Shown: one piece after another, positions 7,452 through 30,348 of the stretch
Layout of the letters: every line of letters begins with the position of its first letter
Numbering within the stretch: the first letter of the stretch is position 1
NCBI GenBank assembly: GCA_009829735.1
Contig: CM020618.1
Location: forward strand, 35,812,894-35,876,893
DNA from: Pyropia yezoensis
Taxonomy: Eukaryota > Rhodophyta > Bangiophyceae > Bangiales > Bangiaceae
Length of the DNA: 64,000 nt
Direction of reading: 5' to 3'
Made by a program: the position numbers and the translations under genes
The notes under the pieces: model-generated
Database searches by the model: none
What the model was told of the DNA's origin: nothing
What the model saw: the letters and a program-made list of their open reading frames with translations, nothing else

Positions 7452-7694
7452 CCGGCGGCAGCGTCCGCTGTGGCGGCGGCGGCGGCGGCTGCGGCGGCGG
7501 CGGCGGCGGCTGCGGCGGTGGCCGCAAGCCAGCGCCGGCGGCAACGGTGGCCAATTGGCGGTGGCAAGCCGGCGTCGTCCGGCCGGCGGCGGCGGCGGCG
7601 GCGGGGGGAGGGCGGCGACCAGTCGGCAACGGCGGCGGCGGCGGCGTGGGCCAGATGACAGGCGTTGCTACTCCCAGCGAATGGAAATAAAGAG

Positions 7695-9130: not shown

Positions 9131-9930
9131 GCGGGCCTCCGATAATGGATTGTGTGAGGAACCACGCACACTTGGGCAGCTCTTAGCGTACTCGCTATGA
9201 AAAGGATACGGCGCGACGTCGGTGGTGATCGAGGGGGGCTCAAAGGGACACGGTCGTCTTTGGTCTGTGTCTGTGGTTGCCCCTCCGGTCCCCCACGGTG
9301 GCGCCGACACCCACGCACTATGTACTCGCGTCCGGGCACCCGAGGTGCCCCAAAGCATGCGTTTCCCCGTCGCGCCGCCGGTAGGCACAGAACGGTCCAA
9401 AAACAAAGCATGGTTCTCAGAATAAAGCATGGGCGGGCGTGCGCACTAAAGGAGTGCAGCCCCAGTTTGCCCCAAACGGATGGGTCCGGCGTGCGGCGCC
9501 CAGTGCGACGTCCCAGCCGGCCCCAGACGCCAGTCGGTCCGAGGGTCCGAGAGGCGTGTAAGCACGGTTCGATCGAGTCGACCAAGTCGGCCAGCCAGCT
9601 AGCCAGTCATATCGCTGCAATGCTGCGGCGAGGACATTGTAACGGACTCGCCAGCTGTGGCAGATGTGGCTCGTCATGGGTGCTGACGGCGGAGCCTTCC
9701 GACAGGCCATGATGGGTTGTCAATGGCTGCTGTCGTGCGGCCAGCAGACACCGTGAGACAGTGGCTGGCTCATTTTGAGTCTGGAAGGTACACCGCGCCA
9801 TGCCCCACAATACAAGGAATTGATCCATGTTGCCACGAGTTGGTTCGGCACGATCTGCAAGGAGAGGTCCCAGATATTATCGCTTTGGTATGAGGCATGG
9901 GATTAGGGGGGAAGTCCTTACAGCCACGCA
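9131..9930. other. Unique spacer between inverted minisatellite arrays
   Basis: Non-repetitive sequence of moderate GC separates the plus-oriented and minus-oriented 31-bp arrays. Open frames on both strands reach 100-220 codons, but none shows a recognisable motif or a convincing start. I see no RNA gene. Confidence 0.4.
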
Positions 9931-12300: not shown

Positions 12301-12304
12301 GCTG

Positions 12305-13110
12305 GGGTTTGGTGGCCTGCCTGCAGGCTCTAATGCATTGTAGGTGGCCTGTCCGCCTGCCCAAGTCAAAATCGGTGGCCTGCCGGCCTGTGCCACGTAT
12401 TCTCGGTGGCCTGCCGGCCTGCCCAATTCATTGTCGGTGGCCTGCCGGGTGGCCCCAAGTCGATGTCGGTCGCCTGCCGCCCTGTGCATCGTATTGTAGG
12501 TGGCCTGCCGGCCGGCCCCAGGTCGATGTCAGTGGCCTGCCGGCCTGTGCAACGTATAGTAGGTGGCCTGCTGGCCTGTCCAATTCAATGTCGGTGGCCT
12601 GCCGGCCTGTTCCACGTTTTGTCGGTGGCCCGCCGGGCTGACCTCTTCAATGTCGGTGGCCTACCGGCTGGCCCCAAGTCGATGTAGGTGGCCCGCCGGC
12701 CTCTGCCACGTATTGTAGGTGGCCTGCCGGCCTGTGCCACGCATTGTCGGTGGCCCGCCGGGCTGCCCACTTCAATGTCGGTGGCTTGCCGGCTGGCCTC
12801 CAGTCGACGTCGGTGGCCTGCCGGCCTGTGCCACGTATTGTAGGTGGCCTGCCGGCCTGTGCCATGTACTGTCGGTGGCCCGCCGGGCTGCCCACTTCAA
12901 TGCCGGTGGCCTGTCGGGCTGCCTAGGTCAATGTCGGTGGCCTGCCGGCCTGTCCAGATCAAAGTCGGTGGCCTTTCGGCTGGTCCAATTCAACGTAGGT
13001 GGCCTGCCGACAGGCCCCAATCCTTGTAGGTGGCTTGCCGGCAGGCCCCAGTCCCGTGTTCGTGGCATGCTGGCCTGTCCAAGGCAGTGTCAGTGGCAGG
13101 CCGCCGTGCC
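12305..13110 (-). repeat. 31-bp minisatellite, large inverted array
   Basis: Roughly 25 units of the 31-bp repeat run in the minus orientation (GGTGGCCTGCCGGCCTGTGCCACGT...). Unit variants such as CCACGTATTGT and CCCAAGTCGATGT alternate, giving some higher-order structure. The array ends in progressively degenerate units near 13110. Confidence 0.88.
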
Positions 13111-13330
13111 TCCTGTGGTGTAGCTGGCCAGAGAACAAGCGTAGTTCATGTAGAGCGGCACGTGTCCTACCGGTAGGCGCTGGGCAGCGGTGGAAGCGGT
13201 GCTGGGGGTTGTGGCTGTCGGATGGGGGTGTCTGGGCGGCTGTGGCGGCGTCATAGATCGTGGGGGGGGGGGGTGGTGGCTGGTGGCGGGGATTGCATCC
13301 AGCACGTCGTCCGCCCCCCTCCCTTCCCTT

Positions 13331-13374
<44 letters not shown>

Positions 13375-14385
13375 CGCGACAAGCGACGATCGACGTCCTG
13401 TGGCGGTGGGGGTGCCGCTATGCGGGGTCGCTTGGTCGACGGCGGCGTCGTACGACGTGCTGGCAGCGGCCGACAACCTGCCGGCGCCGGCAGTGGCCGG
13501 TGGCCCGTCGCCGGCCAGTAGCGGCGGAAGCGGCCATTGTGGTAGCGACGGTGGTTGGAGGGGCAGCGGGGGTGACGGGTGGGCTCCGACCGGACGACGG
13601 CTAGGGGGCGGCGGCGGTTGCGGTGGGGGGCGTGCACCGGGACCGGGACTAGCCGGCGGGATGGCCGCGGTGGGCAACGTCAGTCGGGTGCAAAATTATT
13701 TCTACATGCACCGCACCGTACACTTTCAACGCACCAAGAAGATTCGGTAGCGGTGAGTTTGCGGTGCACGACGCCGACGCCCGGCCTAGCCCGACCAAGG
13801 AACCTGCTCGCCTTCCATGTCGTACGTCGTGTGCTACAAGCGGGCGAGCTCTATCGAGAGCCCCAAGAGCACAACTCGCTCGCTCCGACACGGCACGCTC
13901 TCCTGTGGCGAGGCGACCCGTGCATTGCTCCATGCGACCGGGTCTGGGCAGCCGCAGGCCGTCCTCGGGGCATGGGGACGGTTTTTCCCCGGCGAGGCCC
14001 TCTCGCGCACCATGGAAAGGCGAGCCGCCCAAGAGCCACTGTGTCAGTCGGCACGCCTGTCATAGGGCGTGCGGTACGCGCGGCTGTACACTACGTCTTC
14101 TCCCAAAACTGTCGAGTCTGGCGGGCAGCGGCGGGGAGCGGCGTGTCTGCTGTTGGCACGGGATGAGGGAGCGGCAGTTACGGTGGTCATCGTAGAGGGG
14201 CTCGCTGACGGTGGCTTGTACGTTGTGCGCGCTCCCACTCCCCGACCCCCCCCCCCCCCCCCCCACCCTCCCGTCACCTCTTCCGTTCCCTCCCTCCCCC
14301 CCCCCCCCCCCCCTCTCGGCACCTCTTCCATTCCCTCCACACCCCCCCCCCCGACAACTGACTCTTGGCGAGTCGTGGACGCGTC
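13111..14385. other. Intergenic, homopolymer-rich
   Basis: Contains one of the longest C runs in the window (about 13336-13373) and further C runs at 14245-14365. Open frames are composition shadows; none has a recognisable domain. Confidence 0.5.
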
Positions 14386-15610
14386 ATGTCCGAGTACAGT
14401 GACGACGATGACGATGGGATGGGTGGATCCCCTCAGGCCACAGCGCTAATCGACTGGAACGCAAGTGACGAGGAGGCTCCCGAGGGTGACGACGATGGCG
14501 ACGACGATGGTGGTTGTGACGAAGATGCCGGTGGCGGTGGCGGGTGTGGTGGGGCGTGCACCTGAGGCAAAGGGGAGAGCAGCTGTCATCCTGGCGTCCA
14601 CGCTGCATCACTCGACCGAGGCGCTGACGCTCCCTGTCTGATTGAAGACGACGATGACTCTCTGGAAGAGGACGGCGGCTTTCAAAACTGTGACGCGGAT
14701 GCGATTGTCGTCGAAAACGGCATCAGCATTCACGCTGTCGCAGAGCAAGACGGGGTCAGGTCTGCTGGCGACAATGACAGCGGCAACGGCAATGACACAC
14801 GGCCCGAGCGTCAGGAGGGTGTGGCCATCCAGGTCACCAACGTGGAGGACTGGCGTGATGAGATTTCGCTGCGCACCCTGGCGGCGGCCAGTCCGCTGGT
14901 CGGGCCCGTCTATCCAAGGCCTCTACTTCTCGAGCACAGCGGCACTCTGGCAGGAGCCGTCTACGACGCTGCGTGCGTGACGGACGGCGCCTCAAGCGTG
15001 CCGACCGGGGCGGGGGCGGACGATGTGGCTGCACCCTCTGCCCATCCTCCCCGTGCCAACAAGAGGCACCGCAAGGACGGTGAACCGACGGCGGATGACG
15101 GGGACGCGGGGGGGGGGGGAAAGGCGCCCCCCGCCGACGGTCATGTGGAGACGCAGCGCAAGGCGCGGCAGGAGAAAGTCGGAGGAGCTGCGCACGAGAT
15201 GGCTGGAGCGATGGTGGCGGCGCGAGAGATGGGCTGGTCGGACGAGCAAGCCCAGCTGGCCCAGTCCCAGGACGCGCTCACGTTCATTGGGCAAGGTGTG
15301 CCCCAGGGTGAGCCCGCGGCTGCCAACAATGTCCCCTCTACGAACGACAACGTTGTGGACGCAGCTGCCCTCGTGGTGCAGCGTGCTGTGGCGACGGCCA
15401 AGGCGTTGGCCGACTTTGTTGACCGCGAACAGGGCGCTGTGCCCGCCGAGGTGGAAGAGATGGCTGAACGGGCGGGCTTGGCCGCGGCTGAAGCTGGCCA
15501 GGCTGCCCGTGGCCTGGCAGCCCGTGCGACGCCGCCGGCCCGGGTCACCGCTCGTCCAACCGAAAAGGCGCCCGCATGTGGCAAAAACATCTTGCACACA
15601 CGACACCCAA
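14386..15610 (+). CDS. Acidic N-terminal / Ala-rich helical protein, interrupted
   Basis: ATG at 14386 opens MSEYSDDDDDGMGGSPQATA, an acidic N-terminus. The frame meets one TGA at 14563-14565 and then continues in the same phase through another acidic block (DDDDSLEEDGGFQ), EDWRDEISLRTLAAASPL and an Ala-rich, probably helical region (VVQRAVATAKALADFVDREQ). The TGA may sit in a small intron ending near GATTGAAG at 14647. After about 15600 the better coding phase seems to change (Cys-rich GCLPCRGNRKMCK in another phase), so the 3' end is unclear. The gene stops short of the retrotransposon terminal repeat at 15921. I recognise no family. It may belong with the Fanzor-like gene on the far side of the retrotransposon, which lies on the same strand, but I cannot join them. 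Confidence 0.45.
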
Positions 15611-15920
15611 GTTGGGGCGGTGTACAAGGGCTGCCTCCCGTGTCGGGGGAACCGGAAGATGTGCAAGTCGCACACACTCTATCCCTGTTGTGGGGCAATC
15701 CTCCCACTGACAAACAAGAAGATGGTGTGTGGGCCAACAGTTTCTTGGTCGGGACGGGGAAGCAAGGCCAAGCCCCGCTGTCCCTCCCCTTATCCCCCAA
15801 GGGTCCCCTCAGAATCTCGCCACTCAGAATCTCCCACCCCAGCACCTGCCCACCGGGCCACACGAAACTTCAAGGCGATAAATGCAGAAAACCCTCAAAT
15901 CCAAGTTGGATTTACTACTA

Positions 15921-16046
15921 AGCTAACTATCCCAAACTTAGGGAATATGGACCCAAATGCAGGGGGAGGAACGGGTCAGGCTAGTGGCCTGCCGCCCCTT
16001 GCGTGGCACGTGTTGATCCCCTACCTGGGGGTCAATACTGCCACAC
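15921..16046 (-). repeat. 3' LTR of the retrotransposon (126 bp)
   Basis: The exact match of 24405-24530. Immediately inside it (plus-strand bases just after 16046) the minus strand reads GAGGAGAGGCGA, a purine-rich tract placed where a polypurine tract primes plus-strand DNA synthesis. Confidence 0.88.
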
Positions 16047-16094
16047 TCGCCTCTCCTCAGTTCCGACCGACCCGGTCGGCCCTGCGAGGGGGCG

Positions 16095-16100
16095 TATAAA
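16095..16100 (+). promoter_or_regulatory. TATA-like box for the antisense ORF
   Basis: GCGTATAAACGC stands out from the GC-rich surroundings, about 280 bases upstream of the antisense ORF start and just inside the 3' LTR. Position and sequence fit a core promoter on the plus strand. This is an inference. Confidence 0.4.
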
Positions 16101-16381
16101 CGCACGTCTCGGCGTTGGGGGCGCGACTTGCTGTCCCCCCTGGTACGTAACGTGGACGTGGAGGCGGTCACGTTGACCGCCCCTCTCCTCAAGCTTGCCC
16201 ACTCGGCAGCTGGCTCGCCTCGGTTCTCACCTCACCACCACCAACACATCCCCTTCACCTTGCGCTGGGCCGCCCCACGCTGGGGAGGCCACCCATCTAC
16301 CCGCGATCCGAGCCCATCTCAACTCGAGGCGGGTCTCATGCAGCTGCAACCACCCTGAATCTCCCTAACTTTGGGAGAGCC

Positions 16382-18327
16382 ATGGCGATCCAGGGGTTGG
16401 AGTCTGACTCCCTGGACGAGCGTATGGAGGACACCTCTTACGGTGTAGCGCCCGCCGGGACTTCCGGCGGGGGCTCCGCGATCGCTCAAGGGGATGGGAC
16501 TCCCGCGTCACCCGGAATTGGGTTGGCGGCGGGATCTCCCCCGGAGGCGGGCCGCATCATCCTACGGGAGGCCTTGGGACGGTGGTTCTACCCCGCTTGG
16601 CCTCTTTATGAGGCGGGGTTGACTGTTCTCCGCTGTGGCCGACTTGGCACAGCGATGAGTCGGGTATGGGACCGCCTACGGGAGAAGTTCCCCCGTAGGG
16701 TCGGGTTCCCTCCCGGCTTCAGGACGAACCAGTTTGCCTTCCTGGACGAGGACAACGTCGAAGACGTGCAGCGGGCCAAGGCCATGGTGGACCGCCGGGG
16801 AACTATCCCGGGCACCGGCGACGTGCCGACCTTCACTTGGGACGCGGTGACAACTCGTCCCCCGTACCTTCACGAGGTCGATCCGCACACTCATCACTTT
16901 GATGTGCGGATGAAGAAGGACTTCCGGCGAGGTCCCTACTTGTTGACCTCGGCTCAACTTGAGTTTCCGCAGCGGTCCGCTGCTAGCAAGGAGCAGTACT
17001 ATACCAAGAAGCCCGAGTGGTGGCCTCAAGTTGAGGTCCTCTACGGGTTTCCGGCGTTGATACCCCGGTTGCTTGACCACTTCGGCTCCACCATGCTGGT
17101 GGCTAGCCCGGACCACCTGGTGTTCGCCATGTTGGCAATCCAGTGGCTCCTAGAGGTCATGTCGACCTGGGTGTTTTGTGTCCAGCGGCGGGGGATGCTC
17201 TGGCATCTTGCCCCCCCGGCTTATCCAAGGTTTGGAGCAGCTCACCCCTCAGCTAGTTGCTGAGGGGTGCTCATCAGGACAGCACACTTTACTTGAGGAG
17301 ATGCTGCGCCTCCACAAGTTCATCGAGTGGGAGAGCATTGAGCACCAGTTGCGCCGCTCCTCCCGCGGGCCCAAGGACGATGGCGCACTTCGCCAGTTCG
17401 TCTGGGTCGGTCGTGAACTTCACGACGGCCGTGTGGTCCTTCGAGAGGGGTTGGGCATCGGGGAATACCCGTATGCCCCGGGGGTGGATCGCCACACTGC
17501 GCCGCCCCCGGACAAGGCAATCGTGATAGCGGTGCCCTCTCACGATGACTACATGACTCAACCCACTGCGGGGGCCCCGAGGAGGGGTCGCAGTTACACT
17601 CGGGCACTGCCAACTCGGCGTGCCCCTCCGCTTCCTCCTGTCCCTTTCCAACCGCACGGGGACATCCCGATAAGCGTTGCCGTTGAGTCGTCTACCCCGG
17701 TGTCCCCCAACTTGGGGGCCACCCTCTTGACGGTTTTTGCCCAAGTTGGTGTTGCCGGCCACGCCATTGACCTCAGAGATGATGATCGCCACGTTGGTGC
17801 GCACCATTTCTTGGTTGGCCGCGTCGACCGCAACCCTTCAAGTTTCCGAGACTCCTCAACTTGAGGAGCGCATTCGTACTGCGGCGGCGACCGCGAGTTG
17901 GGAGTCGGTGGCGGGGTTTATGACGACCGAGCTGGCTCGTATTGGGTCTATTGTGCCCCAGCCAGCCCTACTTGGGCGTGGCAAGCGTCGGGCGAGCCGG
18001 GCATACTCGCCTCCTCGCCGTCGTCGCCGTCACTCGCGGCGTTCTGCCTCCGTGTCGGAAGACGAGTTGTCTTATTCCGTCTCGGAGTCCTATACCCCGT
18101 CGGAGTCGGAGTCGGTCCGGCGTCTGCGTCACCAACTTGCGCGCAAGACCAAGCAGAAGGGTAGCCGTGGTCGTCGCCACTTGCGCGACCGTAAGAGGCG
18201 CGACGGTTTCGACTTGGAGCTGCCGCCCCCGCCGACTGGTTGGGAACGTTATCGGCGTGGGTCTCGCCGCTCGCCTCCACGTGAGGGCGAGGGCCGTGGG
18301 GTTGGAGAGTCTAGCATGGGTGCCTAG
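16382..18327 (+). CDS. Antisense ORF inside the retrotransposon with RS-like tail
   Basis: On the strand opposite to gag-pol, between the integrase/chromodomain end and the 3' LTR, an ATG in good context (GAGCCATGGCG) opens about 650 codons if two phase changes are allowed, near 17200 beside a C7 run and near 17780. The protein is not low-complexity: an acidic N-terminus, then a folded-looking region (RQ-free, with WFYPAWPLYEAGLTVL and HEVDPHTHHFDVRMKKDF), a middle region and a strongly basic Arg/Ser-rich tail (SPPRRRRRHSRRSASVSE, YTPSESESV). A TATAAA lies at 16095-16100, upstream on the same strand. I recognise no domain. Extra antisense ORFs in this position are known in some plant Ty3/gypsy elements, so it is probably element-encoded. 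Confidence 0.65.
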
Positions 18328-18438
18328 TTGGCACCTGCCTTTGTTGTGAGAGTGTGAGGGTTAGGACTGTAGCTAAAAGCCACTCTGCGTACCACTTCGA
18401 CTTGAAGCACTCTCTTGGCACGGTCACTCGGCCTTCCC

Positions 18439-18815
18439 TCACGTTGAGGGAGGGCTGTCAGGGTCTATATCATTCCGGGCGCAGTATGCCCGGACCTTCT
18501 CAGCGGGAAGGTCCTCCACGTATTCCCACGTGTCATTCTTGGCCTTAGAGCCAAACCAACGCACCCTCAGCATGAGGCGGTTAGTGTCCTCATCCCACCC
18601 GTGATCGATGAACTTATCGAACACGTACTCCTGCGGGCCCTGTTTGGCCGCAGGTAGCGAAGGAAGGCGCCACGCTTTCAGCGCACGCGGCCAAGCCGGG
18701 TCGCCTGCAGGAGGTGGTGCAACGTTTACCACGTCCTGTCCGTTCACTGTGCGGACCCCATCGTCACTTTCGACGGTGAATCGCCGTCCATCTGTACGAA
18801 GGACCTGGTATGGCC
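18439..18815 (-). pseudogene. Chromodomain at the pol C-terminus
   Basis: After the frame change near 18815 the reading phase gives a GPY-like linker and then a chromodomain: EYVFDKFIDHGWDEDTNRLM, LRVRWFGSKAKNDTWEYVED and a C-terminal helix. The aromatic and TWE positions typical of chromodomains are present. In chromoviruses this domain directs integration to particular chromatin. The frame ends at 18439. Confidence 0.85.
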
Positions 18816-19880
18816 CTTCGTCTGGAACACCAATTTACCCCCAGTTGGGGTGCGTGAGTGTGCCAGTACCCAGTCACCCTGCTCGGGGACATGCTTAGCA
18901 TTGCGCACCTTTTTGTCAAAGGTACGCTTGTAGCGCTTTTGTGCTTTGTCCATCTCAGCCCTGACTTTAGGGATGAGTTTTTCAAGCCTAGCAGCGAACT
19001 CCGCCTTGCTCTCAGTAGGAGTAGGCGTACTGCCACCATCCTCCCTAGTTGGGAGCGGCCGCCGCACGGCAATAGACTGCACGCGACGGGGGGTCACAAA
19101 AGCGAGGGGTACTTCCCCGGTGGATGAGTGAACCTGCGAATTGTAGGCAGTCGTAAGAATAGAAATGTATTGGTCCCACGTTTTCACGTGCTCACTCACA
19201 TAGTGGCGCAGCTGCCGAACAATAGTTTTGTTGAAGCGCTCCACCTGCCCATTAGTTTGTGGGTGGTAGGGGGTGGCATAGTTTGCCTGAAACCCCAACA
19301 TATCCAGCACTCCCTGAAACAGTACGGACGCAAATTGCGGTCCGTTGTCCGATAGTGTACTCTCCGGGATTCCATACGCGGCAACCCAGTGATCTAGGAA
19401 GGCTGACACGACCGACATGGCCGTGATCTCTGCCAGAGGGATCGCTCGCGTAAGTTTCGTGAAGCGATCGCAGATGACCAGGAGGTACTGGTTGCCCTCC
19501 TCGGTCACTGGCAGGGGCCCAAGGATGTCCATTGCCAACGCGGCAAAGGGCTCCTTGGCCGGGAACAGCAACATAGCCGTAGTAGGCCGCCGTTCCATCA
19601 GACGGTTCTGCGCACAACTTGTGCAGGCAGCCACCCAACTGTAGATGTCTACCATCATGGACTGCCAGTAGTACCTGGTCCTCAGGGTCTGGTACAGTTT
19701 ACTAGACCCCAGGTGTCCACCTGTGGGAGCGTTGTGCTCCCTCTCAAGAATACTGTCCTTGAGGGATGCGGGGACGACAAGTTCGGTCCCCTGGATTACC
19801 CCCCTCCTCAAGAGGAGGCCATCGTCTCCGATGAAGAACCGAGTCTCCGCCACCGTATCCAGCATATCCCTCTGCGACTT
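18744..19880 (-). pseudogene. Integrase, frameshifted at its C-terminus
   Basis: In phase with RNase H apart from the intervening TGA. The N-terminal HHCC finger is HNAPTGGHLGSSKLYQTL ... CTSC. The DDE core shows LAMDILGPLPVT, LSDNGPQFAS and NGQVERFNKTI, so all three catalytic acids are present. The GPY/F-like region is entered in the wrong phase: the expected continuation is in the neighbouring frame from about 18815, next to a GGG run. A one-base deletion there separates the integrase from its chromodomain. Confidence 0.9.
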
Positions 19881-20717
19881 TCAGAAGAAGTCCTCGGCCT
19901 GGGCCTTCACTACCTCGTCCAGGGACAGGGGCAAGTACTTCTTGTTCCCTGGCGCCTCGGGGTCCAACGCCTGACCCGAGCGCGTGACTACCCCCCCGAT
20001 GGGGATGTCCTCATCGACTGAGTTAGTGTCCAGCCCCTCGGTAGGTACCCGAGAAGGGCCGTCGGCAAGGGCATGTTGCCTGCCAGGTCGGTACTCAATA
20101 TCAAAGTTGAAGGGTGCCAGTCGCACCCTCCACCTGTTGAGGCGTGTGTTCGTGCAATCCGTTTTGAAGATGAACTGCAACGCGCGGTGGTCACAGCGGA
20201 TGAGGAACTTCTCACCCTCTAGGTAGTGACGAAGTGACGTCACCGCCCACACCACTGCGAGTCCTTCCAACTCGGTGACTCCATAGTTCTTCTCAGCCGA
20301 GTTCAGCCCCTTGCTGAAGTATCCCACCGGCAAGTACTCCTTGTCCGGCTGCTGCTGAAGCAACACACAACCAAGTTGATTGTAGCTAGCATCCACGTCC
20401 AGGATGTAGTGGCCTCCCAACCTGAGAATAGCCAAGATAGGGGGCTTCAGCAGTAGGCCCCGAAGAATCTCAAAGAATTCCTGCTCCACCCGACTTGGGG
20501 GAGGCTGGTTCTTCGGTAGCGTCGAGCTGCCTGGCTCATTCAGCGGCTTCGCCACCTTGGCGAAGCCCTTGGTGAAACGTCGGTACACGTTACACATCCC
20601 GAGGAAGCTCCTCATCTGGGTCTGGGTCCGGTACTGAGCCTTACGGATGGTCCTCAAGTTCTTTTCGTTGACACTGAGGCGCCCCGGACGGACAACATGT
20701 CCCAAGTATTCCACCTC
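19881..20717 (-). pseudogene. RT thumb and RNase H region
   Basis: Directly after the TAG at 20718 the same phase continues with the RT connection (VEYLGHVV) and an RNase H domain: ILDVDASYNQLGCVLLQQ (first Asp), TELEGLAVVWAV (Glu), IRCDHRALQFI (Asp) and HALADGPSR (last Asp). All four acidic residues expected of the family are present, although the final motif is usually NxxADALSR. The frame ends in TGA at 19881-19883 just before integrase, again without change of phase. Confidence 0.88.
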
Positions 20718-21940
20718 CTAAGTGAAGAGGTGGCATTTACTCGCCTTCAGTGACACACCGGCATCAGCAAGTAGCTTGAACACCTGGCCAAGATGGCCAA
20801 TGTGTTCCTCCGGACTTCGGGAGAACACAATGATATCGTCTAGGTGCACAAGACAGATCTGCCACCGTACTCGGGCCAAAATCATGTCCATGGCGCGCTG
20901 GAAGGTTGCCGGCGCGTTGCACAGTCCAAACGGTAGTCGCTTGCACTGGTAGGTACCACAGTGACAGGTAAAGGTAGTTTTATGCCTGTCCTCCGGGGCA
21001 ATGGGAATTTGCCAATACCCCGCGTTACATTCTAGGGTAGAAAACACGTTTGCCTCCCCCAGAGAGTCCAGACAGTCGTCCATCCTAGGTAGGGGATAAC
21101 TGTCTTTGACCGTGCTCTCGTTGAGCTTACGGTAGTCGATACAGAACCGTGGGGTCCCATCAACTTTGGGGACAATTACCACCGGACTCGCCCACTCGGC
21201 GTCACAGGCCTCGATCACATCGGGGGCCTCCATGCGAGCGACTTGCTCCTTAACAAGGGGCCTTGAACGGGGCCCTCCCCTGTACGGTTGTTGGCGTATA
21301 GGGGGTGCACCGGGTTTCAACTTGATTCGGTGTTGGGTGGCTCTCATGAGTCCCAATTGACCATCCCCCCACTTGTGATATTGGTCCAAGAGGCGTTCAA
21401 CTTGAACCCTCAACCTGGGGGGAACATTCTCTATGTTCACATGGGGCCGAGGAGAGGCGGCCGACTTGGCTTGGTGCTTCTCCTTTCCGGACTTCGGGTC
21501 GCTACTCGCGCCCGCGTTGAGGGTGACCGCTACTACTGGTCCCTCATGTTGGTCGATATAGCCGAACTTGGCTCCCGACTTGAAGTACTTGGGCGAAGAG
21601 CTCAGGTTCATCACCTGGATCCTCCACGGGACTCCAGCTTTGGAGTCCATCGTGCCAAGGGCAACATGCACTTGGTGCTTGCGAGCAAGACGGGGGTGAG
21701 GGTGCACCAACCCTTTCCCCGTATAATCAGTTACAACGTCAACGTGCGCCACCAAGTTGGGGGGCAACGTGAATTTACGGGCTAAACGCAGAGTAGCAGT
21801 AAACCCTTCTCTCACGGAGCAAGCAGGCTTCGACTGTGAGACTGTCACAGGAGCCACAGACTTTCCCTTACCAAGGATGGGGATGGTCTCCCCATTCATC
21901 AACTTGACCCAATACTCAGGGCCACAAATCAAAGGCACTT
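20718..21940 (-). pseudogene. Reverse transcriptase, truncated by TAG, altered active site
   Basis: This frame shows the Ty3/gypsy RT order: SPVVIVPKVDGTPRFCIDYR (region with RKLNE), FSTLECNAGYWQIP, RLPFGLCNAPATFQRAMD, and LVHLDDIIVFS. Two deviations affect the catalytic triad region. The first catalytic Asp (usually LD in the FxxLD motif) is Glu (TLEC), and the YxDD box reads HLDD. TAG at 20718-20720 then interrupts the thumb region, and the same phase continues downstream with VEYLGHVVRPGRLSV. The upstream 180 residues link protease to RT. Whether this RT is active is doubtful. Confidence 0.9.
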
Positions 21941-21943
21941 GCG

Positions 21944-22414
21944 TTACAACATAAGCGGTACCCAGGAGCAGGGGTATGATATATTCTCGAGTACTCCATA
22001 CGTCACGTCGACTTCATGGGTTCCCAACCTAGTTGAAAGGGTCACGGCACTAACAATGGGAAGTACCCCACCATTGATGTCAATCATATGGTCAGCTTTA
22101 GACCTCCAGCGTTGGAGCTTCATCTCCTTTCGTAATAGCGACTTGCGTATCAAGGAGGCTCCTGACCCGGTATCAAGTACGATACGGGCACAACAGGCAC
22201 GGCCGGGGGCTAGTTGCACCCGTCCAGCCACCTGGAGATTCTCACCCGTCAGCCCCGCGATGACCCGACGTGGGTTTACGTTCTTGGGGAGTCCTACCCG
22301 AGGTGGGCGGACTCCCTTAGGTCGGCGCAGTATCCGGCAGGGTTGGTTCGTCCTTTTGACCCACTTGGCCGAGGCTGCCGTTGTGAGCTTAGGACGGCTA
22401 GCTCCAACGGTCAT
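21944..22414 (-). CDS. Retrotransposon aspartic protease region
   Basis: A 156-codon frame starts at an ATG overlapping the gag stop. It contains the retropepsin active-site motif in IVLDTGSGASLIRKSLL (Asp-Thr-Gly), followed by beta-strand-like sequence ending GTHEVDVTYGVLENISYP. The frame then closes at 21944, while the adjacent phase carries the expected continuation into RT, so a frame change lies around 21965-21985. It would act on the Gag-Pol polyprotein. Confidence 0.85.
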   Translation of the reverse strand: MTVGASRPKLTTAASAKWVKRTNQPCRILRRPKGVRPPRVGLPKNVNPRRVIAGLTGENLQVAGRVQLAPGRACCARIVLDTGSGASLIRKSLLRKEMKLQRWRSKADHMIDINGGVLPIVSAVTLSTRLGTHEVDVTYGVLENISYPCSWVPLML

Positions 22415-24357
22415 TCGTTTCCCGCCGACTTGGCGTCTGAATCCGAGGGCGAAGGGGAAGACGACCAGTCCGAGGACGACGTGTCCGCCCCCTCCGCCGA
22501 GGGTGTGGCGACCGCCACTACCGGTCGAGGCCCACCCTCGCGGCGCGAACGTACTTCGTTCGTAGCCGACTTCTTACTCGCATTCTTGACAAGTTGTTGA
22601 ATGCGTTTGCTCAACATAGGGCAATCATATGCCCAGTGTCCATCGGAGTTGCAGTTCCAACACCGATTGTCAGTTCCCGGAGGGGTCTTCCCGACTGGAG
22701 AAGCCGAAGAGGCACCCTGGGAAGTTCCCACGGCAGCTGCTACCCTCTCCTTGCGGATTCGGCGTGCCTCTCGCAACTCTCTGGCCTGGTGCGCCTCCTC
22801 TCGTTCCTTGGACGACTCGGCCTGACGCTTCAAGCGTTGTTCCTCCCGCAACTTGCGGTAGGCCTCACCTCTGCGGTAGGCGAACCTAGCCAACTCGGCT
22901 AGTGTCGCCCGGGCAGTATTATGCTCCCGGGTCTCCATACGGACTGACCAATGGAGTCCCTCCACAAACCGACTCTTCACCACAGCTTGTGGATGAAGAA
23001 AGCCACAAAGATTGTTGAGCTTACGAACTTGCTCCGCAAAGGACAACTCGTCCCCAGTCTCTTCTTGATGGGCTTGCGTAAACTCCTCGACTTGAGAAGC
23101 CAACGCTGCTTCATCCACCATGGCTCTCAACAACCAGTTGAAGAGCACCAAATAGGACGTCACCTCACCAGCGCCTCCACTTGAGGAACTGGGCATGACG
23201 GACATAAGTTCTGTCCGGAGGTCGCCCTTCGTAAACTCCTGTAGCATATAGAAATCCATGCCTTCACTTATGGCATTGTCGTCACAGGCTTTTGTGAAAC
23301 GACGTACAAACTCAAAGACACGGAGGGGGGGAGTTCCATCCCACTCCTCTTTGTGCCCAAAAGAGTGGAGTGCATTCTTCTTGGCACGGCCCATGGCTCA
23401 GGCCTGAATAGGACCGTACGCCACCGACTTGTTGTGGAGGGCGTAGGTCTCACAGTCGAAGATCCTCTGGTAAACCGGGTTGACAACCTGGATCTTGGGT
23501 GGCACCTCACGTTGAGGGAAAAGCCGCTGAGGCACTGGGGTAAGTTGACCCGCAGTGCCTGTCGTCTGCTGCGGCGAGCATAGGGTAGCCGCCGGCTTTT
23601 CCGAGGGGAACTCCCCCGTGAAGGGCGTACGCCCCACCAAGAATGGTGTGGCTCCCTCGTTGGGAGTCATATGGGTCGCCCCCTGTTCGGGGCGACCCGA
23701 GACAGGCGTGAGGAGGGATTCCCCATGCGCCTGCCGGCTCGAAAGCCCCAATCCGGTCTGGACATTAAGGCCATCTGGCAAACTCGCCACAATCTGATTC
23801 AGAATAGTATTCGTCATCGTGACCACCAGGTCCGGCAAAGTCTGTCGGAACACATTGGTCGCCTCCCGACGGACAGTTTCCGCGAGGAGTGGATTGTCGA
23901 CTCCAGTTGAGTCTCGGTCCGCCTCCGGGAGTCCACCTGAGGGGTAACCACGATCCTCAGGGGTCTCAACCGGGGGCATGGGCGCGAGCCCATCGCTGAC
24001 CAACGGAGGTCCGCCGTCCTCCGAAAGCCTAGTTGGCGACGGCTCCAAGCCAAAGTTGGATCCAACCCGAGTGGAGCCCGCGGGGACAGTCCTCTCACCT
24101 TGCGACGTTCCCGTTGAGTATACCACGCGGTGGCCAGACTTCGGCCCATCCACATCAGAAGTGTCACCCGAGTGAACTCCCGACTGAGTCGGGGTGGCCT
24201 GTTGCCCGCCCGTACTTCCAGTCCTGCTGGCTTGAGGGATCTCTAGTCCCTCTGCGACCCCAGGTAAACTCACCTGTGTCTCACCAGTATTCAAAGGCAC
24301 TGAAGTACGTGCGTCACCCGTGTACTCCCCGGACGACGGGGGGTCCGAGCTAGCCAT
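22411..24357 (-). pseudogene. gag: gag of the retrotransposon, with an in-frame TGA
   Basis: From ATG at 24357 (MASSDPPSSGEY) the frame runs about 320 codons of Ser/Thr/Pro/Gly-rich sequence, meets TGA at 23398-23400 and continues in the same phase to 22411. The second half begins around MGRAKKNALHSFGHKEEWDG and contains the capsid-like helices (VFEFVRRFTKACDDN, FVEGLHWSVRMETREH), a charged coiled-coil stretch (about 22700-22850) and one zinc knuckle CWNCNSDGHWAYDC (CX2CX4HX4C). The in-frame TGA could be a mutation or a read-through site separating a leader from the capsid-nucleocapsid part. The gag stop overlaps the next ATG (ATGA at 22414-22411), suggesting coupled reinitiation for protease. 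Confidence 0.85.
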
Positions 24358-24404
24358 GTTGGCTGAAGATCCGTATAACACGGTCCAAGTCCACCGTTCC
24401 TCTG

Positions 24405-24530
24405 AGCTAACTATCCCAAACTTAGGGAATATGGACCCAAATGCAGGGGGAGGAACGGGTCAGGCTAGTGGCCTGCCGCCCCTTGCGTGGCACGTGTTGA
24501 TCCCCTACCTGGGGGTCAATACTGCCACAC
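24405..24530 (-). repeat. 5' LTR of the retrotransposon (126 bp)
   Basis: Identical over 126 bp to 15921-16046. On the minus strand it begins (G)TGTGGCAGTATTGACC, a normal TG start, and ends GGGATAGTTAGCT, so the expected CA end is absent or altered. The gag start codon lies only about 48 bases inside it. The plus-strand frame that begins inside this LTR and reads into the zinc-knuckle segment uses a GTG, not an ATG, so that start should not be trusted. Confidence 0.88.
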
Positions 24531-25356
24531 CGCACACGGCGACGCTGCCGTGAGCCACACGACCAGCGCTGGGAAGCGCAAGTGCTCCCGGTGCGGCTTG
24601 GCGGGTCACTACGTACGCACCTGTGACGCACAGCAGCACGTGGTCGCGGCACACGCCGCGGCAGTCAAAGCCAGCGTACTGATGGCGACGGTAGACCGTG
24701 CGGCGCGCAAGCTGGGCCGCAAGGCCCCGACTTGCGGCAAGTGTCACCAGACTGGGCACACGGCGCGCACTTGCCCGGCGGTCCTCGTCGGGGGCGTCCG
24801 GGGTCTCAGAGTCGACGCTGGCGACCCGTACGCCATGGGCGAGCACAAAGTGCACACCTCGGTCCTACTCCCACTGGCTCGCGTTGGGGCGACCCGCCCT
24901 CTGGCGGCGGCTCCACCCGGGGGGGCGGCGGCAGAGCGCGCCACCAGCGTCAACAACAATGGTGGTCGGGGTGGGCCGCCGACGCGGCCGCGAAAGACGG
25001 TCGGGGACCCGGCGGTGGCCCAGGCGCTGGGCCACGCGCTCGAGTCACTGGCCGTAACGGCCAACCGCCACAGGTACCTCATGACGCTGGGCATTGAGCG
25101 TGCTCTCCGGTCAGTCTACCAGGCGAGTGCCTCCATGCAGGGGTTTGTCGACGCCCTACCCCTGGTGCTGGCAAGCGGCAGCCACCCGCCCCGGTTCAGA
25201 GGGGCCGCGGCGTCAGCCTTGTGTCGCGGCGCAGCGGTGGCAGAGAGGCCCGACGGCGAGCTCTCTGGTTGCTGCCAGGCTCTCCCGGAAAAGCACCCCC
25301 AGGAGTCGGCCTTTGTCGGCGACGGGCTGGGAGGCAAGGCGTTTGCAACAACCTAG
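24531..25356 (+). CDS. Two CCHC zinc knuckles, N-terminal part of the Fanzor-like gene
   Basis: Immediately right of the retrotransposon an open plus-strand frame encodes two zinc knuckles of exact CX2CX4HX4C spacing: CSRCGLAGHYVRTC and CGKCHQTGHTARTC, separated by an Ala-rich helix. It then has a Pro/Gly-rich linker and a helical stretch (VTANRHRYLMTLGIERAL, SVYQASASMQGFVDALPLVL). The frame stops at 25354-25356, and the same phase resumes after a likely 3' splice site (CTGACCTGCAG ending at 25403). This suggests an intron of roughly 65-90 bases and continuity with the nuclease. The true start is not visible because the retrotransposon end abuts the frame. Zinc knuckles bind single-stranded nucleic acid. 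They might instead come from another element's gag. Confidence 0.6.
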
Positions 25357-25403
25357 GACCGCTTCATGTCTACCGTTCAATAAGAGGCGCCGCTGACCTG
25401 CAG

Positions 25404-28166
25404 CAAGGATCTGTCAGGCCCGGGCGATGCCCTTGCGTTCAAGACGGCGGCCACGACCATCTGGATGCACGTGGCATGGAGGGCAAAGCCAGCAGTGATG
25501 TGCCTTGCCAAGGTGATGGACGATGACGCCCTGCCAGCGGTCAAGCTGCTACCGCATCCACCCTTGACCGCGCAGGCGCAAGCGCAGGCGTCCACCCCTG
25601 CAGGCCGCGCTCAAGACCGTAAGCGTCGCGCCCTCCGCGGCAAGCTCACGCGGTTCATCTCCGACACGATGATGGGGGGTGCCGACGAGGTGAAGGACGG
25701 CTCGTGGCCGGCGGGTGCGCCACCTTTCGTACAGCAGCGGATGGCCTCAGACCTCAAGGCCGTCTTTCCGCGGGTGCTGCCCATAAAGTTCGGCGCAAAG
25801 CTGGCCATCACGCTCCCCGGGACGCGCCGCCAGGGGTGCTGGCTGCTTTTCCTCCCCCACGGCATTCAGGTACAGCGGCTGCTCTTGTCGCGGAAGCGCG
25901 CGTCGTATGCGGTCTTTCCGCGCCTGGCACCCGACCTGTGCCGCTGCAAGCACGTCACCCCGACACTGCTGCGGCGGGCGATGGAACGGGCTCAACTCGT
26001 CTCACACCCTGGGCTCGGCGAGGTGCACACCCTGCTGGCGGTAAGTCGCGGCACGAATGGGAGCGCCGGTGTCGCCAAGCTGGCCGCCATGGCCGGGGTT
26101 CGTACAAGGCGGTCCCGCTTTTGCCCGTACGTCGTTACTAACGGGACGGGTGTCGTCTTTACGCTGGAGCGGCCCGCCGACGCGGCCGAGGTGGCGGCCA
26201 CGCAAGCGCACCAGGCCCGACGACTGCGGGGCGGCAACGGGACCAAGTCGGGCGGCGGGGTGACGAGCCTGGAACTCCAGGCGACCGTCATGGGGCTGCC
26301 CCTTGAAGGGTCGGTCACGAAGTGTGTGGTGGGTGTGGACCCGGGGGTCAATGACATCTACACGGCCAGCTCCCTCGGCCTGGATCCCGACCTTGTCGTC
26401 GTCCCGTCGCCACACGTGTTTGCGTACCGGGCGGAGCGGGCATGGAAGGTCGCAGCCCACTCCCTGGTGCGGGCGGCGCGCACGCTGAGCCGGCTGGCCG
26501 CCGCTGTCGACTCACCATCAACATCAGAAGCAATGCATCTTTGGCAAAGGGGGCGGGTCAAGGCGTCGAGAGTGCGAGTGGTAATGCTGCCGGTGGTGGT
26601 ACAGTGGCAGCGGCGGGCAAGGTCTCCCGGTGCCGGCGGCGCCGGCGGTCGCAGCGCAAGCACCGGGGACCCGTGGCAACGGCCAGGCGGCTGGCACGTG
26701 CCGAGCTTCGCAAGGAAGTGTTGGAGGAGCTCGCCCAGACAGGTGCATCTGCGCAGCTCATTGACACGCTGTGTGCAGAGGCGATTCGGGCAGCGGGGGC
26801 CTACGGGACTGCCGGGGCGCACGGCGAGGGCGCCCGTCGACGACGGTGGCAGAGACGGCGACGACACCCGCCATCACGCCCCCCCACTTGTCCGCCTCGT
26901 GGGGCAACAATGTCTGTGTGCAGTGCTGCGCATGCCGAGCAGTCGGACGGCAAGATTATGGCAAGGGCGCAGGCCTCGTGGCGGGCGGTGTGGGAGGCCA
27001 GCCGGCCAGCCGGCTCCGAGGCCACCCCAGAGGACGTCTTTGAGGGTACGTCCCTCAGGCAGCCGACGTTGCTGGACTGGGCGGCAGCCGCCTTGACCTG
27101 GGCTGCCACTCGCAGCACTGCCGACTATGCTGGCGCCTATGGCAAAGACGCGTTGCGGCCGCTACGCAAGGCCCGCGTCCACCGCTATGTGCAGCGTGGA
27201 TGGTTCGCAGCCAAGGTCGCACGGGATCTGAGTGGCGGGTATGGTCGCCGCATCGTGGACGGCAAGGCCGTCTTGGTGGTGTGGGGGGCAGCAGCGACGA
27301 GGGGTGGGGCGACCGCCTTGAGGCGCCGCGTGGCGGGGGGGTGCTTCCTCACCACCCAAGACGAGTACAACTCGTAGCAGACCTGTGCCGACTGTCACTG
27401 TCGGCTGGTGCTCGTCTACCCCACCGACCCCTCCCCGAATGACAGGCGGCAGGTCATCAGCGTGGCGCAGTGCGCGGCGCAGGCGCTTAGTGACGCAGAC
27501 GGCAGCAAGCGCAAGGTGGTGGTGCGCCGGCGACGGGCGGCCAAGGGGCGTCGCCGATGCGAAGGCCGCGGGGGGTGCTCCCCACGGGACCTGAAGCGGC
27601 GAGGAAGGGCAGAGGAGCGCGATGCCGGCGAGGCACAGGAGCGGTTGGCCGAGATTCTGGTCAGTGGCAAGCGCTCTGGCGGCTATGACGTGCTGGCATG
27701 CTGGTCCGTGAAGAAGTGTGTCAACCATGACTGTGGTCGGCTGTACCTCAACCGGGACAAGAACGCGGCGCGCAGCATCGCGCAGGTGGCGGTCAGTTCA
27801 TTGCTGGGGCGGTCTAGGTTTCCCTTTTTCCGCAACTGTCACCCTCGTCGGCCTCTTGCGGCTACTGCCCAGTTGTCCCGAGACACGGCATCGGAGTGGC
27901 ACCCGCCGTGGCTTGTGTCGGAAAGTGCCGGCGGTGGCGGTGGAGGCGGTGGCGGTGGAGGCGGTGAAGGCGGTGGCGGTGGCGGTGGCGGTGGAGGAGG
28001 TGGAGGCGGTGGAGGCGGTGGAGGCGGTGGCGGTACTACCAACCCTGTCCGGGCGACGACCAAACTCGTCTCGGTGGGGGCTCTGGACGGGGCCACTGCC
28101 TATTCCCGCACAGCGATGAGCCCTGCCGGCGACGGCGGGGGCAATTGTCGCACGGCTCATCAGTGA
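25404..28166 (+). pseudogene. Fanzor/TnpB-family RNA-guided nuclease, interrupted copy
   Basis: Family: OrfB/TnpB-like nucleases, eukaryotic Fanzor branch. The first block (phase 1, to about 26520) has a long N-terminal region and then RuvC-I: CVVGVDPGVNDIYTASS, catalytic Asp codon 26338-26340. A phase change around 26500-26600 (frameshift or intron) leads to a block with PLRKARVHRYVQRGWFAAKV, KAVLVVWGAAATRG and CFLTTQDEYNS. A TAG at 27375-27377 then falls inside the usual E-Y-x-S-x-T-C signature, and the frame continues with QTCADCHC, KKCVNHDCG (zinc ribbon) and RuvC-III LYLNRDKNAARSIAQV (Asp codon 27756-27758). The C-terminal tail holds a Gly run encoded by a GGTGGAGGC-type repeat (27929-28032). 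In the family these proteins cut DNA under guidance of an RNA made from the 3' end of their own locus. The breaks suggest a decayed copy unless spliced or recoded. Confidence 0.82.
27929..28032 (+). repeat. GGC/GGT-GGA microsatellite in the Fanzor-like tail
   Basis: A short-period repeat (GGCGGTGGAGGC type units of 6 and 9 bases) encodes an almost pure Gly run in the nuclease C-terminus. It sits after RuvC-III, outside the catalytic core. Confidence 0.85.
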
Positions 28167-28236
28167 TAGTGTAGGACCCTCTTCGAGGGCTTCGCTATAT
28201 GCCCCTCTCGGGAGGGGGGCTTCCATTGATTTAACT
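28167..28236 (+). ncRNA. Candidate guide-RNA scaffold hairpins downstream of the Fanzor-like gene
   Basis: Right after the stop codon come two tight hairpins: CCCTC-TTC-GAGGG at 28177-28189 and CCCCTC-TCGG-GAGGGG at 28202-28217. A possible long-range pair GGGC/GCCC links them (28187-28190 with 28201-28204). The sequence then becomes AT-rich, which could mark the edge of the element. In TnpB/Fanzor loci the guide RNA is made from the 3' end of the gene and beyond. This is a positional inference, and the hairpins could instead form a terminator or 3' UTR. Confidence 0.35.
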
Positions 28237-28659
28237 ATGCTTAATGATATCGATTATGTTGATGCTATTCGAACTCGAGAGAGCCTTCATTTCAGTCACG
28301 GGGCGGCGTCTCGATCGAGCAACCCCCGTCCTGTCTGGTCCCGGTGTCGGCAAACGAAGGGGCGGGTCCGGAGTCCCTTGAACCCCCTGCAGGGGCCGTC
28401 TGCTGGCCTCACTTCAACCCCCGCTAACGACGGCGGCCGTAAAGGCTGTTTCTTTAAACCACCCCCACCCAACGACTCTCGGCGTCAGCCCACTGCCACT
28501 CGCGGTGGACGTTCCGCTCCTCACCTCGCCCCCGCCACCCGTCCCCCTCGCCCCCCCCCTCGGAACCTCCCCCGCTCCCCCATCCCCCCCATTCATGTCG
28601 GACGCTCTTTCCTCCTGGATGCTTTCCCCCGCCGCCCCTCTCGCCGTACGCGCTCGTCC

Positions 28660-30348
28660 ATGTCGCGCAGCCGCGGCACCCCTCCGATGGTCCTCCCGCC
28701 GCTGTCCCCCGTGTCGAGCGTCGACGCGGCCGCCGCGGGCGGTGTCATGGCCTCCGCCGCGGCGGTGGCTGCGGTACCCAGCCCCGTCTCGGGAGCGCCA
28801 ACGTCGGGGGAGGGTGGTGGTGTTGGTAATGGCCCCGCTGCTGCCGCCGCCGCCGCCGCCGCCGCTGCCGCTGTCGCTGTCGAAGTCACCCCCAATGGGC
28901 GCCCCCATGGCCCGTCTTCTTCCTGTGGTGGCCTTAGAAGGAAGGGGGGCGCCTCGGATGCCGCCGCCACGCCGCCACCTCCGACCACCTATACCCCGTG
29001 CAACATCCTGGTCACGGGCGGGGCCGGCTTTATCGGCTCCCACGTTGTGGTCTACCTGACCACCCACTACCCCGAGTACAAGGTGGTTGTCCTCGACCGC
29101 CTCGACGCGTGTGCGGCGGTGGCCAACCTGGAGGGCGTGCCCAGAGGCGCGCGCTTCCGCCTTGTCGTGGGTGACGTGCGGGACGCGGGGCTGGTGGCCA
29201 CTCTCTTCGCCGCCGAGGCCATTGACACGGTCCTCCACTTTGCCGCGTCGACGCACGTGGACGCGTCGTTTGCGTGTCCGCTCGCCTACACGGACAATAA
29301 TGTGGTGGGCACGGCGGTGCTGCTCGAGGCGGCACGGCGGCACCCGCTGCTGCGCCGCTTCCTCCACGTCTCGACGGACGAGGTGTATGGCAGTGGCGCT
29401 GCGATGGCGGGGGCGGGGGCGGCGGCGGGGGCGAGGGCGGGCGCGGGGGCGGAGCCGAAGCCGGGGAGAGGGGACGGGGGCGTTCGCGCGCCCGCGCCGG
29501 CGGGTGCGTCGACGCCCTCAACTGAGGCGTCGTCCATGGCGCCTACCAACCCTTACGCGGCATCCAAGGCGGGCGCGGAGCTCTTAGCTTCCTCCTACGC
29601 TACCGCGTTTGGGCTGCCGCTTGTCATCACGCGTGCCAACAACGCGTACGGGCCGGGCCAGTTCCCTGAAAAGTTTATCCCCAAGACGCTCGTCCGCCTC
29701 CTGTCTGGTCGCCGTGCATTTCTCCACGGTGACGGCACCCACCGGCGGTCCTACATGTACGTCACGGACATGGCCTCCGCCTTTGCTGTCATCCTCCACC
29801 GGGGTGTCACCGGGGAAGTGTACAATGTGGGGAGCACCGTGGAGAAGAGCAACGGCCAGGTCATCGCAGACCTCCTGGACGTCCTCGGACTGGTCCAACC
29901 GCCCACGGGAGGGCGGCCAGCCGCCACGGGGTGCGACGGCAGGGAGAAGCTCCGCGTTGACGACCATGCCAGTCGTTGCGGCGGCGGCAACGTTGAAGAC
30001 GGCAGCGGCGGCCTGTCGCCGGGGTCCCCCCCCCCCGGGGTGAACGAGCCGGTGCCCCCTTGGCTGCGCGACCCCGCGACCGCCGCCGCCTTTGACGCGC
30101 ACGTGACGCACGTGCGGGACCGGCACTACAATGACCTGACGTACGCAGTGGAGGCGTCCAAGCTGTGCGCCCTCGGCTGGGCACCCGCCGTGCGCTGGGC
30201 TGACGGCCTTGCCGCGACGGCGGCGTGGTACGCGTCGGCCGACCACCTGGCCCGCTGGCCGGGGCTCGAGGGCGGCCTCGTCGCCCACTTTGTGGCCCCG
30301 CGGGGGGGGGAGGGGGGGGGGCGCCACCGCCGACGCCGGTCGTTTTGA
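28660..30348 (+). CDS. UDP-glucose 4,6-dehydratase-like NAD-dependent epimerase/dehydratase
   Basis: An extended short-chain dehydrogenase. From ATG at 28660 (MSRSRGTPP; upstream in-frame sequence back to 28237 looks non-coding) it has about 110 residues of Ala/Pro-rich leader. It then shows the NAD-binding TGGAGFIGSH (about residues 118-127), VLHFAASTHVD, TDNNVVGTAVLLEAARR, the catalytic HVSTDEVYG (about 238, with the Asp-Glu pair of sugar-nucleotide 4,6-dehydratases) and YAASK (Tyr near 299). NNAYGPGQFPEKFIPK and the DGTHRRSYMYV motif follow. These are closest to RmlB and the N-terminal half of plant RHM enzymes, which make UDP-4-keto-6-deoxyglucose for rhamnose. A low-complexity insert of about 50 residues lies between STDEVYG and YAASK, and another near the C-terminus. 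Probably cytosolic, or organellar if the leader is a transit peptide. Confidence 0.88.
   Translation: MSRSRGTPPMVLPPLSPVSSVDAAAAGGVMASAAAVAAVPSPVSGAPTSGEGGGVGNGPAAAAAAAAAAAAVAVEVTPNGRPHGPSSSCGGLRRKGGASDAAATPPPPTTYTPCNILVTGGAGFIGSHVVVYLTTHYPEYKVVVLDRLDACAAVANLEGVPRGARFRLVVGDVRDAGLVATLFAAEAIDTVLHFAASTHVDASFACPLAYTDNNVVGTAVLLEAARRHPLLRRFLHVSTDEVYGSGAAMAGAGAAAGARAGAGAEPKPGRGDGGVRAPAPAGASTPSTEASSMAPTNPYAASKAGAELLASSYATAFGLPLVITRANNAYGPGQFPEKFIPKTLVRLLSGRRAFLHGDGTHRRSYMYVTDMASAFAVILHRGVTGEVYNVGSTVEKSNGQVIADLLDVLGLVQPPTGGRPAATGCDGREKLRVDDHASRCGGGNVEDGSGGLSPGSPPPGVNEPVPPWLRDPATAAAFDAHVTHVRDRHYNDLTYAVEASKLCALGWAPAVRWADGLAATAAWYASADHLARWPGLEGGLVAHFVAPRGGEGGGRHRRRRSF

Follow-up and report, generated by a model that had tools for sequence, protein, structure and literature searches.

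Fanzor1 proteins are for the most part 600–700 amino acids long (PMC11423790), with lengths of up to about 800 given in the available text of another study (PMC10711439), which also sets Fanzors apart from TnpB by two fingerprints, a DPG triplet at RuvC-I and a glutamate placed six residues ahead of the zinc finger's first CxxC, and describes a TDG motif in the Fanzor1 WED domain and right-end RNAs with a three-stem shape. A Fanzor pattern has also been given as D-X(125,275)-[TS][TS]-X-X-C4-X(5,50)-RD (PMC3627910). With these descriptions as a reference, we analyzed a 64,000-nucleotide stretch of the red alga Pyropia yezoensis (C1:35812894–35876893, hereafter the window) together with the genome from which it comes (107.5 Mb in 11 contigs). 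Very probably, a Fanzor1-type mobile element of this alga survives in the window as a degenerate copy, and the working ancestor of that copy would have carried an omegaRNA at its right end. The element lies at 10692–28230 and is interrupted at 15577–24529 by a retrotransposon; its left limit of ~10692 is provisional, being where similarity to one sister copy starts. Unless otherwise stated, the features of the gene and element given below are on the plus strand.

A first-pass annotation of the window had placed one Fanzor gene at 25404–28166, in a single frame, with RuvC-I, an OrfB-type zinc ribbon and RuvC-III in that order. All three motifs can be located in the order described. Three-frame translation of 24301–28400 puts RuvC-I (VVGVDPGVND, 26326–26355) in frame 1, and puts in frame 3 the sequence EYNS*QTCADC (27363–27395), which holds the alternative RuvC-II glutamate and the first ribbon CxxC, followed by the second cysteine pair CVNHDC (27717–27734) and the RuvC-III NRD (27750–27758). 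The asterisk marks a genuine stop codon within the ribbon motif (27375–27377), and a single-frame gene at 25404–28166 is rejected on this translation. The order of the motifs is not a product of chance: DE[FY]x5CxxC arose in none of 2000 dinucleotide shuffles of 24530–28230, read in three forward frames, and the ordered motif set therefore also in none, while NRDxxA by itself arose in 33 of the 2000. Since one 587-codon frame of the sister copy L002 contains the complete set, from RuvC-I through the glutamate and the two cysteine pairs to NRD, the outcome named in advance as telling against a Fanzor, that the motifs lie in unrelated frames in all copies, does not hold.

The limits first proposed for the gene proved too narrow. 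Coding starts at 14701, before the nested retrotransposon, with an open, low-complexity N-terminal part in frame 1 (14701–15576) that continues in frame from 24535; in the sister copy L032, which lacks the insertion, the reading runs on across this site. The rest of the broken gene occupies 24535–28166 by translation and copy comparison, and the element ends at 28230. The two zinc knuckles (CSRCGLAGHYVRTC at 24583–24624 and CGKCHQTGHTARTC at 24733–24774) and the glycine-rich tail, a GGN repeat with approximate limits of 27930–28034, do indeed belong to the gene, but the open reading frame (ORF) in which the knuckles had been seen starts in the end of the retrotransposon, and the true N terminus of the Fanzor gene lies about 9 kb upstream of that ORF.

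The Fanzor fingerprints recur throughout the family to which this copy belongs. In a scan of eight family proteins, which did not include P0003 and P0005, DPG is present in 6 of the 6 proteins that reach RuvC-I (it is cited for the window, L002, L023 of family B, L017, P0004, P0006 and P0007), E-x6-CxxC in all eight, with C changed to F in L016, and NRD in all seven that reach it; the three occur together in five. A ten-sequence alignment adds DPG in P0003 and P0005, of which the former has the alternative glutamate and the degenerate latter has K in its place, and contains NRD wherever the ends are intact. A five-sequence alignment (A3) shows no variation at the RuvC-I D-P-G, at E, N and S within E-x-N-[TS]-S, or at the first pair of ribbon cysteines. 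At 66–74 residues before DPG stands a TDG in family B and P0004 and a TNG in the window (26137–26145), P0006 and P0007, as compared with a TDG 50 residues before DPG in the viral Fanzor1 L085; such triplets also occur elsewhere in the same proteins, and those before RuvC-I are putatively the WED-domain motif described in PMC10711439. The residues and the C4-then-RD order of the pattern in PMC3627910 are found in family A and P0006, with CYTC in family B and no second pair in P0004. Its spacing is not: the D-to-E distance is 400 residues in L002, 403 in L023, 364 in P0004 and 449 in P0006, and some 100 residues separate the two halves of the ribbon C4 (the two cysteine pairs of L002 start 111 residues apart), so that a spacing typical of TnpB and Fanzors, as claimed in the first-pass annotation, has to be given up.

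Comparison with known proteins points the same way. The TNB domain PF07282 matches two of the seven relatives scanned, L010 (E 8.4e-5, 23.1 bits) and L002 (E 2.2e-4, 21.8 bits). A motif-pattern search of viral contigs, in which a first pattern gave no match and a second gave L085 and the unrelated L086, supplied a 656-residue Fanzor1 on L085 that looks textbook by its motifs, and an hhalign comparison brings the family core into register with it at two places, the DE[FY]..S ribbon with E 0.0028 and C-x4-C/NRD with E 0.0059. InsQ, a TnpB (L084), aligns at the ribbon only (E 0.055) and lacks the glutamate and the DPG. The relatives found in the databases outside the genome (P0004 with 1,347 residues, P0006 with 1,408, and the shorter P0005 and P0007–P0009) are all unnamed. 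Three database relatives are from Pyropia yezoensis, which bears out the red algal host suggested earlier; they were deposited as 'hypothetical protein' and are therefore unannotated so far. By its DPG, its glutamate six residues before CxxC, its C4 and its NRD, and by the order in which these come, rather than by a curated profile score, the family is classed here as Fanzor1, in agreement with the kind of nuclease first proposed.

It is also important to consider the results that weigh against this assignment. The PF07282 scores of 21.8–23.1 bits fall below the cut-off of 26.3, five of the seven relatives scanned gave no match, and none was found in the family search of the genome itself. A Pfam/NCBIfam scan of the window pieces returned no Fanzor domain and only a weak zinc knuckle (E 0.0034). 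We read the missed PF07282 cut-off as a limit of sensitivity and not as decisive for membership, because PF07282 is a TnpB/Cas12f model. Despite their E-values, the hhalign probabilities are only 11% for the ribbon and 6% for C-x4-C/NRD, and none of the 10 database rows found bears the name Fanzor. A profile search of the PDB (profile A2) reached only a Cas12m chain at E 0.38, the C-terminal half of family B gave 59 matches to solved structures that all lie in the region of the glycine-rich tail, and L002 gave nothing relevant there; in none of these searches was a Fanzor PDB chain reached. The AlphaFold model of P0007, built from 9 sequences, was poor (predicted local distance difference test score 38.8) and was left unused, and a homologue search with InsQ returned only near-identical enterobacterial proteins among the best 120 listed, which were unsuited to profile building.

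The knuckles raise a different reading, in which the frame is a remnant of a retroelement gag whose likeness to RuvC arose by chance. CCHC knuckles are typical of gag, zf-CCHC is the best Pfam match of the N-terminal piece (E 0.0034, below the cut-off), and the nested retrotransposon does hold a CCHC gag. This reading seems very improbable to us given that no shuffle in 2000 reproduced the motif set, that the catalytic and cysteine positions are kept across families only 30–40% identical, and that PF07282 reaches E 8.4e-5; moreover, no reverse transcriptase or integrase domain is reported for P0001, P0004 or P0006. Two knuckle-like motifs occur with the middle part of the protein in P0001 and with the whole protein in P0004, as two do in the window, and P0006 carries one.

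The suggestion that other copies be sought in the same genome was borne out. Searches gave 104 matches for the C-terminal piece of the window protein and 95 for the middle piece, corresponding to about 100 related places in two main families; the match counts are lower bounds for the genome, and split copies were counted more than once. Family A, the window type, has protein identities of 67–92% and is old: all twelve of its other copies (counted after merging pieces and excluding matches of about 25 residues) contain one stop or more within the match. Family B is 43–51% identical to the window core and is young: the DNA of L022 is 94–98% identical to that of nine other type B copies among L018–L030, and 18 of the 104 C-terminal-piece matches, all of family B, are free of stops and belong to unbroken frames that reach or exceed 1,400 codons. 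Smaller and more distant groups are formed by L016/L019/L027 and by L017. The pooled ratio of nonsynonymous to synonymous differences per site (pN/pS) is 0.57 among seven family B copies, with single pairs at 0.19–1.13 (ten frames were prepared, L018, L021 and L026 were left out, and L028 contributes 540 codons only). For family A the ratio is 0.66, computed on 145 codons from eight copies that include the one in the window. These values are mild evidence, consistent with a coding capacity that lasted until recently or belonged to the ancestral sequences.

The window copy itself is a fossil, a dead Fanzor copy, and not the working gene that had been supposed. It is broken in at least five ways, namely by the retrotransposon, a deletion of about 175 bp and three in-frame stops. 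The retrotransposon is a Ty3-like long terminal repeat element of about 9 kb on the minus strand (15577–24529), with reverse transcriptase, RNase H and integrase domains and a gag with CCHC, termini of the form TGTGG...CCACA, and a flanking target-site duplication CCGCA (15572–15576 on the left and 24530–24534 on the right) that is single in L032. The sister copies L032, L035, L036 and L043 pass directly from window ~15177–15576 to ~24530. The insertion is young, because its two ends are 99.2% identical across 123 bp. Two of the stops, TAG at 25354–25356 and TAA at 25381–25383, are missing from all eight covering copies among the nine sister copies compared, L034 being aligned across 38 bases only. 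Relative to sister copies about 175 bp are deleted at 26516–26518 (near 26517), where the frame shifts from 1 to 3. The window copy is unable to make an intact protein, and an active complex formed from it is improbable. An extra ORF of the retrotransposon on its opposite strand (16382–17263) is weakly similar to a family B element gene (L074:7721–8839, minus strand), with 23% identity and an E-value of 4e-11 for a single comparison.

Introns are possible in red algal genes, and one might instead read the locus as a working multi-exon gene whose frame changes and stops fall within introns, the more so as the coding pieces are well conserved. We give this reading hardly any credence. The frame change is a deletion, for the sister copies hold the extra ~175 bp, which in L002 lies inside one open frame; the stops at 25354 and 25381 are particular to the window copy in the comparison with the eight covering sisters; the retrotransposon, with its target-site duplication, sits within the coding part; and family B is one uninterrupted frame. 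On the first three of these grounds, a gene divided by introns is rejected.

The degenerate mobile element that remains the preferred reading has an exact right end at 28230. When 28000–29200 was used as the query, 17 of the 21 other family A matches end at 28230–28234, and the remaining four stop earlier, with none running beyond (the 21 exclude five glycine-tract pieces of 33–35 bases and unrelated matches past query position 800). The right terminus reads CTTCCATTGAT in the window and in 10 of the 11 others inspected, L011 differing, and the flanks beyond it are unrelated. The last 120 nucleotides (28111–28230) are predicted to be structured and form the candidate omegaRNA scaffold, with fold z-scores of −3.60 in the window and −5.07 in L002; the terminal CATTGAT (28224–28230) pairs with an upstream ATCAGTG (28159–28165) in a stem that closes two stem-loops. 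Family B ends in a sequence unrelated to that of family A, for which the predicted fold likewise has two hairpins enclosed by a closing stem (z −2.76 and −2.09, with 7 of 200 shuffles folding as well in the case of −2.09). Across 18 copies, in an alignment that left out L077 (identical to L076), L081 (in which the end differs) and two short-stopping right ends, 92.9% of the pair cells are kept, as against 44–52% when the partners are slid. Two findings speak against an RNA here: changes on both sides of a pair occur in 0 of the 45 right-end pairs, and shuffles are not exceeded in this covariation test of the 18 copies; and no Rfam family matches the right end. The alignment is unable to prove an RNA, because the copies differ too little from one another and most of them are dead. 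Beyond the border, an ORF at 28237–30348 starts 7 bp past the right end of the element and holds a nucleoside-diphosphate-sugar dehydratase/epimerase domain (GDP_Man_Dehyd, E 3.8e-58) that begins near residue 257.

The same right end could be explained without a guide RNA, as a DNA signal recognized by a rolling-circle (Helitron2-like) or other transposase, with Fanzor as a passenger. Of the marks of a Helitron2, namely a RepHel protein and hairpins at the 5' and 3' ends, the 3' hairpin is present here. Chlamydomonas has Helitron2 elements that carry Fanzor1, with hairpins at the 3' end and an excess of 3' ends (PMC3627910), and the lack of covariation, together with eight right-end places that have no listed RuvC match nearby, would fit such a signal. 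On the other side, the small number of ORFs scanned, almost all from family B, showed no Rep or other transposase, and the ends of families A and B are unrelated in sequence, yet share a closing stem and two hairpins. The two roles are also compatible, since terminal repeats lie inside Fanzor1 guide RNAs in the account of PMC10711439. We regard a transposase signal without an omegaRNA as a substantial possibility, though one that we are inclined to doubt.

Under the preferred reading, of a Fanzor1-type element with a right-end omegaRNA, the working element would have made a large Fanzor together with an omegaRNA from its own right end, and the guide would have been the DNA immediately past that end. 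The complex may then have cut matching DNA, for example an empty donor site, through the D, E and D residues of RuvC, and such cutting would have helped the element to be kept or to spread. Holding RNA is the probable role of the CCHC knuckles.

Family B differs from the window type in its surroundings. Its Fanzor has upstream of it an ORF whose AAA_11 and AAA_12 domains (E 1.9e-18 in one scan, 3.4e-34 in a second) mark it as a UPF1/SEN1-like superfamily 1 helicase. At 48 of the 56 helicase places a non-A Fanzor follows on the same strand, no more than 60 kb downstream (no more than 12 kb at 39), and none of the 56 shows any other Fanzor arrangement within that distance. For this count 86 of the 104 rows of C-terminal matches were typed as non-A Fanzor places, after exclusion of 16 family A rows including the window, the second fragment of an A copy and a row with E 0.007, and the 56 helicase rows exclude second pieces of split copies, rows of 69–74% and the 44–46% family. 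At the 16 family A places, no UPF1-like helicase of this type was found in the 60 kb upstream. A further block of 7.5 kb lies upstream, with the helicase 10–50 kb downstream on the same strand in 14 of 17 copies (further pieces left out) and, in a fifteenth, the Fanzor about 20 kb downstream. Because the helicase and the block recur upstream of the Fanzor, family B appears to belong to a multi-gene element, of about 25 kb without nested insertions when pieced together from different copies. Its left border was observed in two copies, and no target-site duplication was seen when two copies were compared by eye, the left ends resting on two copies. Eight other ORFs of the element have no Pfam match of note. 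Two ORFs of L071 (3284–4117 plus and 5073–5900 minus) within this element are opposed and look alike by eye, again with no notable Pfam match. A second family of UPF1-like helicases, 44–46% identical, is present at about 20 places, several with frames of 1,786–1,940 codons (e.g., C1:10759822–10760778).

The size and helicase of the family B element, along with the presence of Fanzors in giant viruses (PMC3627910), make it fair to ask whether these loci are endogenous giant-virus insertions. This appears unlikely, in that a Pfam scan of 9 ORFs from family B brought up no viral hallmark, no relative of profile A3 was confirmed in viral contigs (53 pattern-matching stretches), and the copy number and exact right ends are those of a transposon. 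What the helicase may mean for the Fanzor-bearing elements can be put as a tentative proposal, which we consider quite possible, if somewhat short of even: bangiophyte red algae would host a separate Fanzor1 lineage, of double size and with N-terminal knuckles, whose young branch is the right-end gene of a high-copy, helicase-encoding, multi-gene element of at least ~25 kb, with nuclease and helicase acting together to move or maintain a giant transposon.

The window contains other repeats. A unit of about 1.6 kb is tandemly duplicated at 5850–7452 and 7453–9070, each unit containing a CGG tract, an array of 163 bp and a 31-bp minisatellite, and a similar 31-bp repeat lies inside the family A element at 12311–13042. 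Two more repeats, at 4576–5147 and 9208–9922, are common to several other loci in the genome.

The interest of these results lies with the family, in its size, its knuckles and its helicase-bearing element, and not with the window copy. Fanzors measure about 500–800 residues in the literature consulted. A clade of proteins of 1,350–1,410 residues with CCHC knuckles, regularly located behind a UPF1-like helicase in a large element of which dozens of copies closely resemble one another, is found in a cultivated edible alga (nori). Its numerous insertions, together with natural guides and right borders that are exact, would allow a direct test of what Fanzor does in eukaryotic transposition. Among open-access papers we found none that joins Fanzor with a zinc knuckle, CCHC or Pyropia, nor any that joins Porphyra with TnpB, the subscription literature being mostly uncovered by these searches.

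In comparison with the described Fanzor1 proteins SpuFz1, GtFz1, PpFz1 and SfAV Fanzor (PMC10432273, PMC11423790, PMC10711439, as far as their available text goes), the Pyropia family shares the DPG, the glutamate six residues before CxxC, the NRD, a putative counterpart (TDG or TNG) of the TDG motif upstream of RuvC-I, insertions in RuvC and in the zinc finger, a right end predicted to be structured and residence in a eukaryotic mobile element. It departs from the 600–800 residues of those papers in its size of about 1,350–1,410, roughly twice that of a usual Fanzor (1,400 in one family B copy, counted from the Met of MNDDDD), and further in its N-terminal CCHC knuckles, its glycine tail, its insert of about 100 residues in the zinc ribbon, its DPG-to-E span of 364–449 residues and, in family B, its UPF1-like helicase partner. 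The likeness to TnpB is narrower: the TSQ.CxxC ribbon of InsQ from E. coli aligns with the family, and InsQ has neither the alternative glutamate nor the DPG. Among mobile elements, compared by description only, the Fanzor1 element CMe-1A of the red alga Cyanidioschyzon merolae differs in being about 3 kb long and in that no knuckles or helicase are mentioned in the available text (PMC3627910), and it resembles the present one in its ~150 old copies and its want of terminal inverted repeats. The Helitron2 elements CRe-1/2/3 of Chlamydomonas, which carry Fanzor1 and were likewise compared by description, are unlike those of Pyropia in that no Helitron Rep appears in the Pyropia ORFs scanned, where left ends are unsettled, but they too have a 3' terminal hairpin and right ends that outnumber full copies (PMC3627910), as is the case here.

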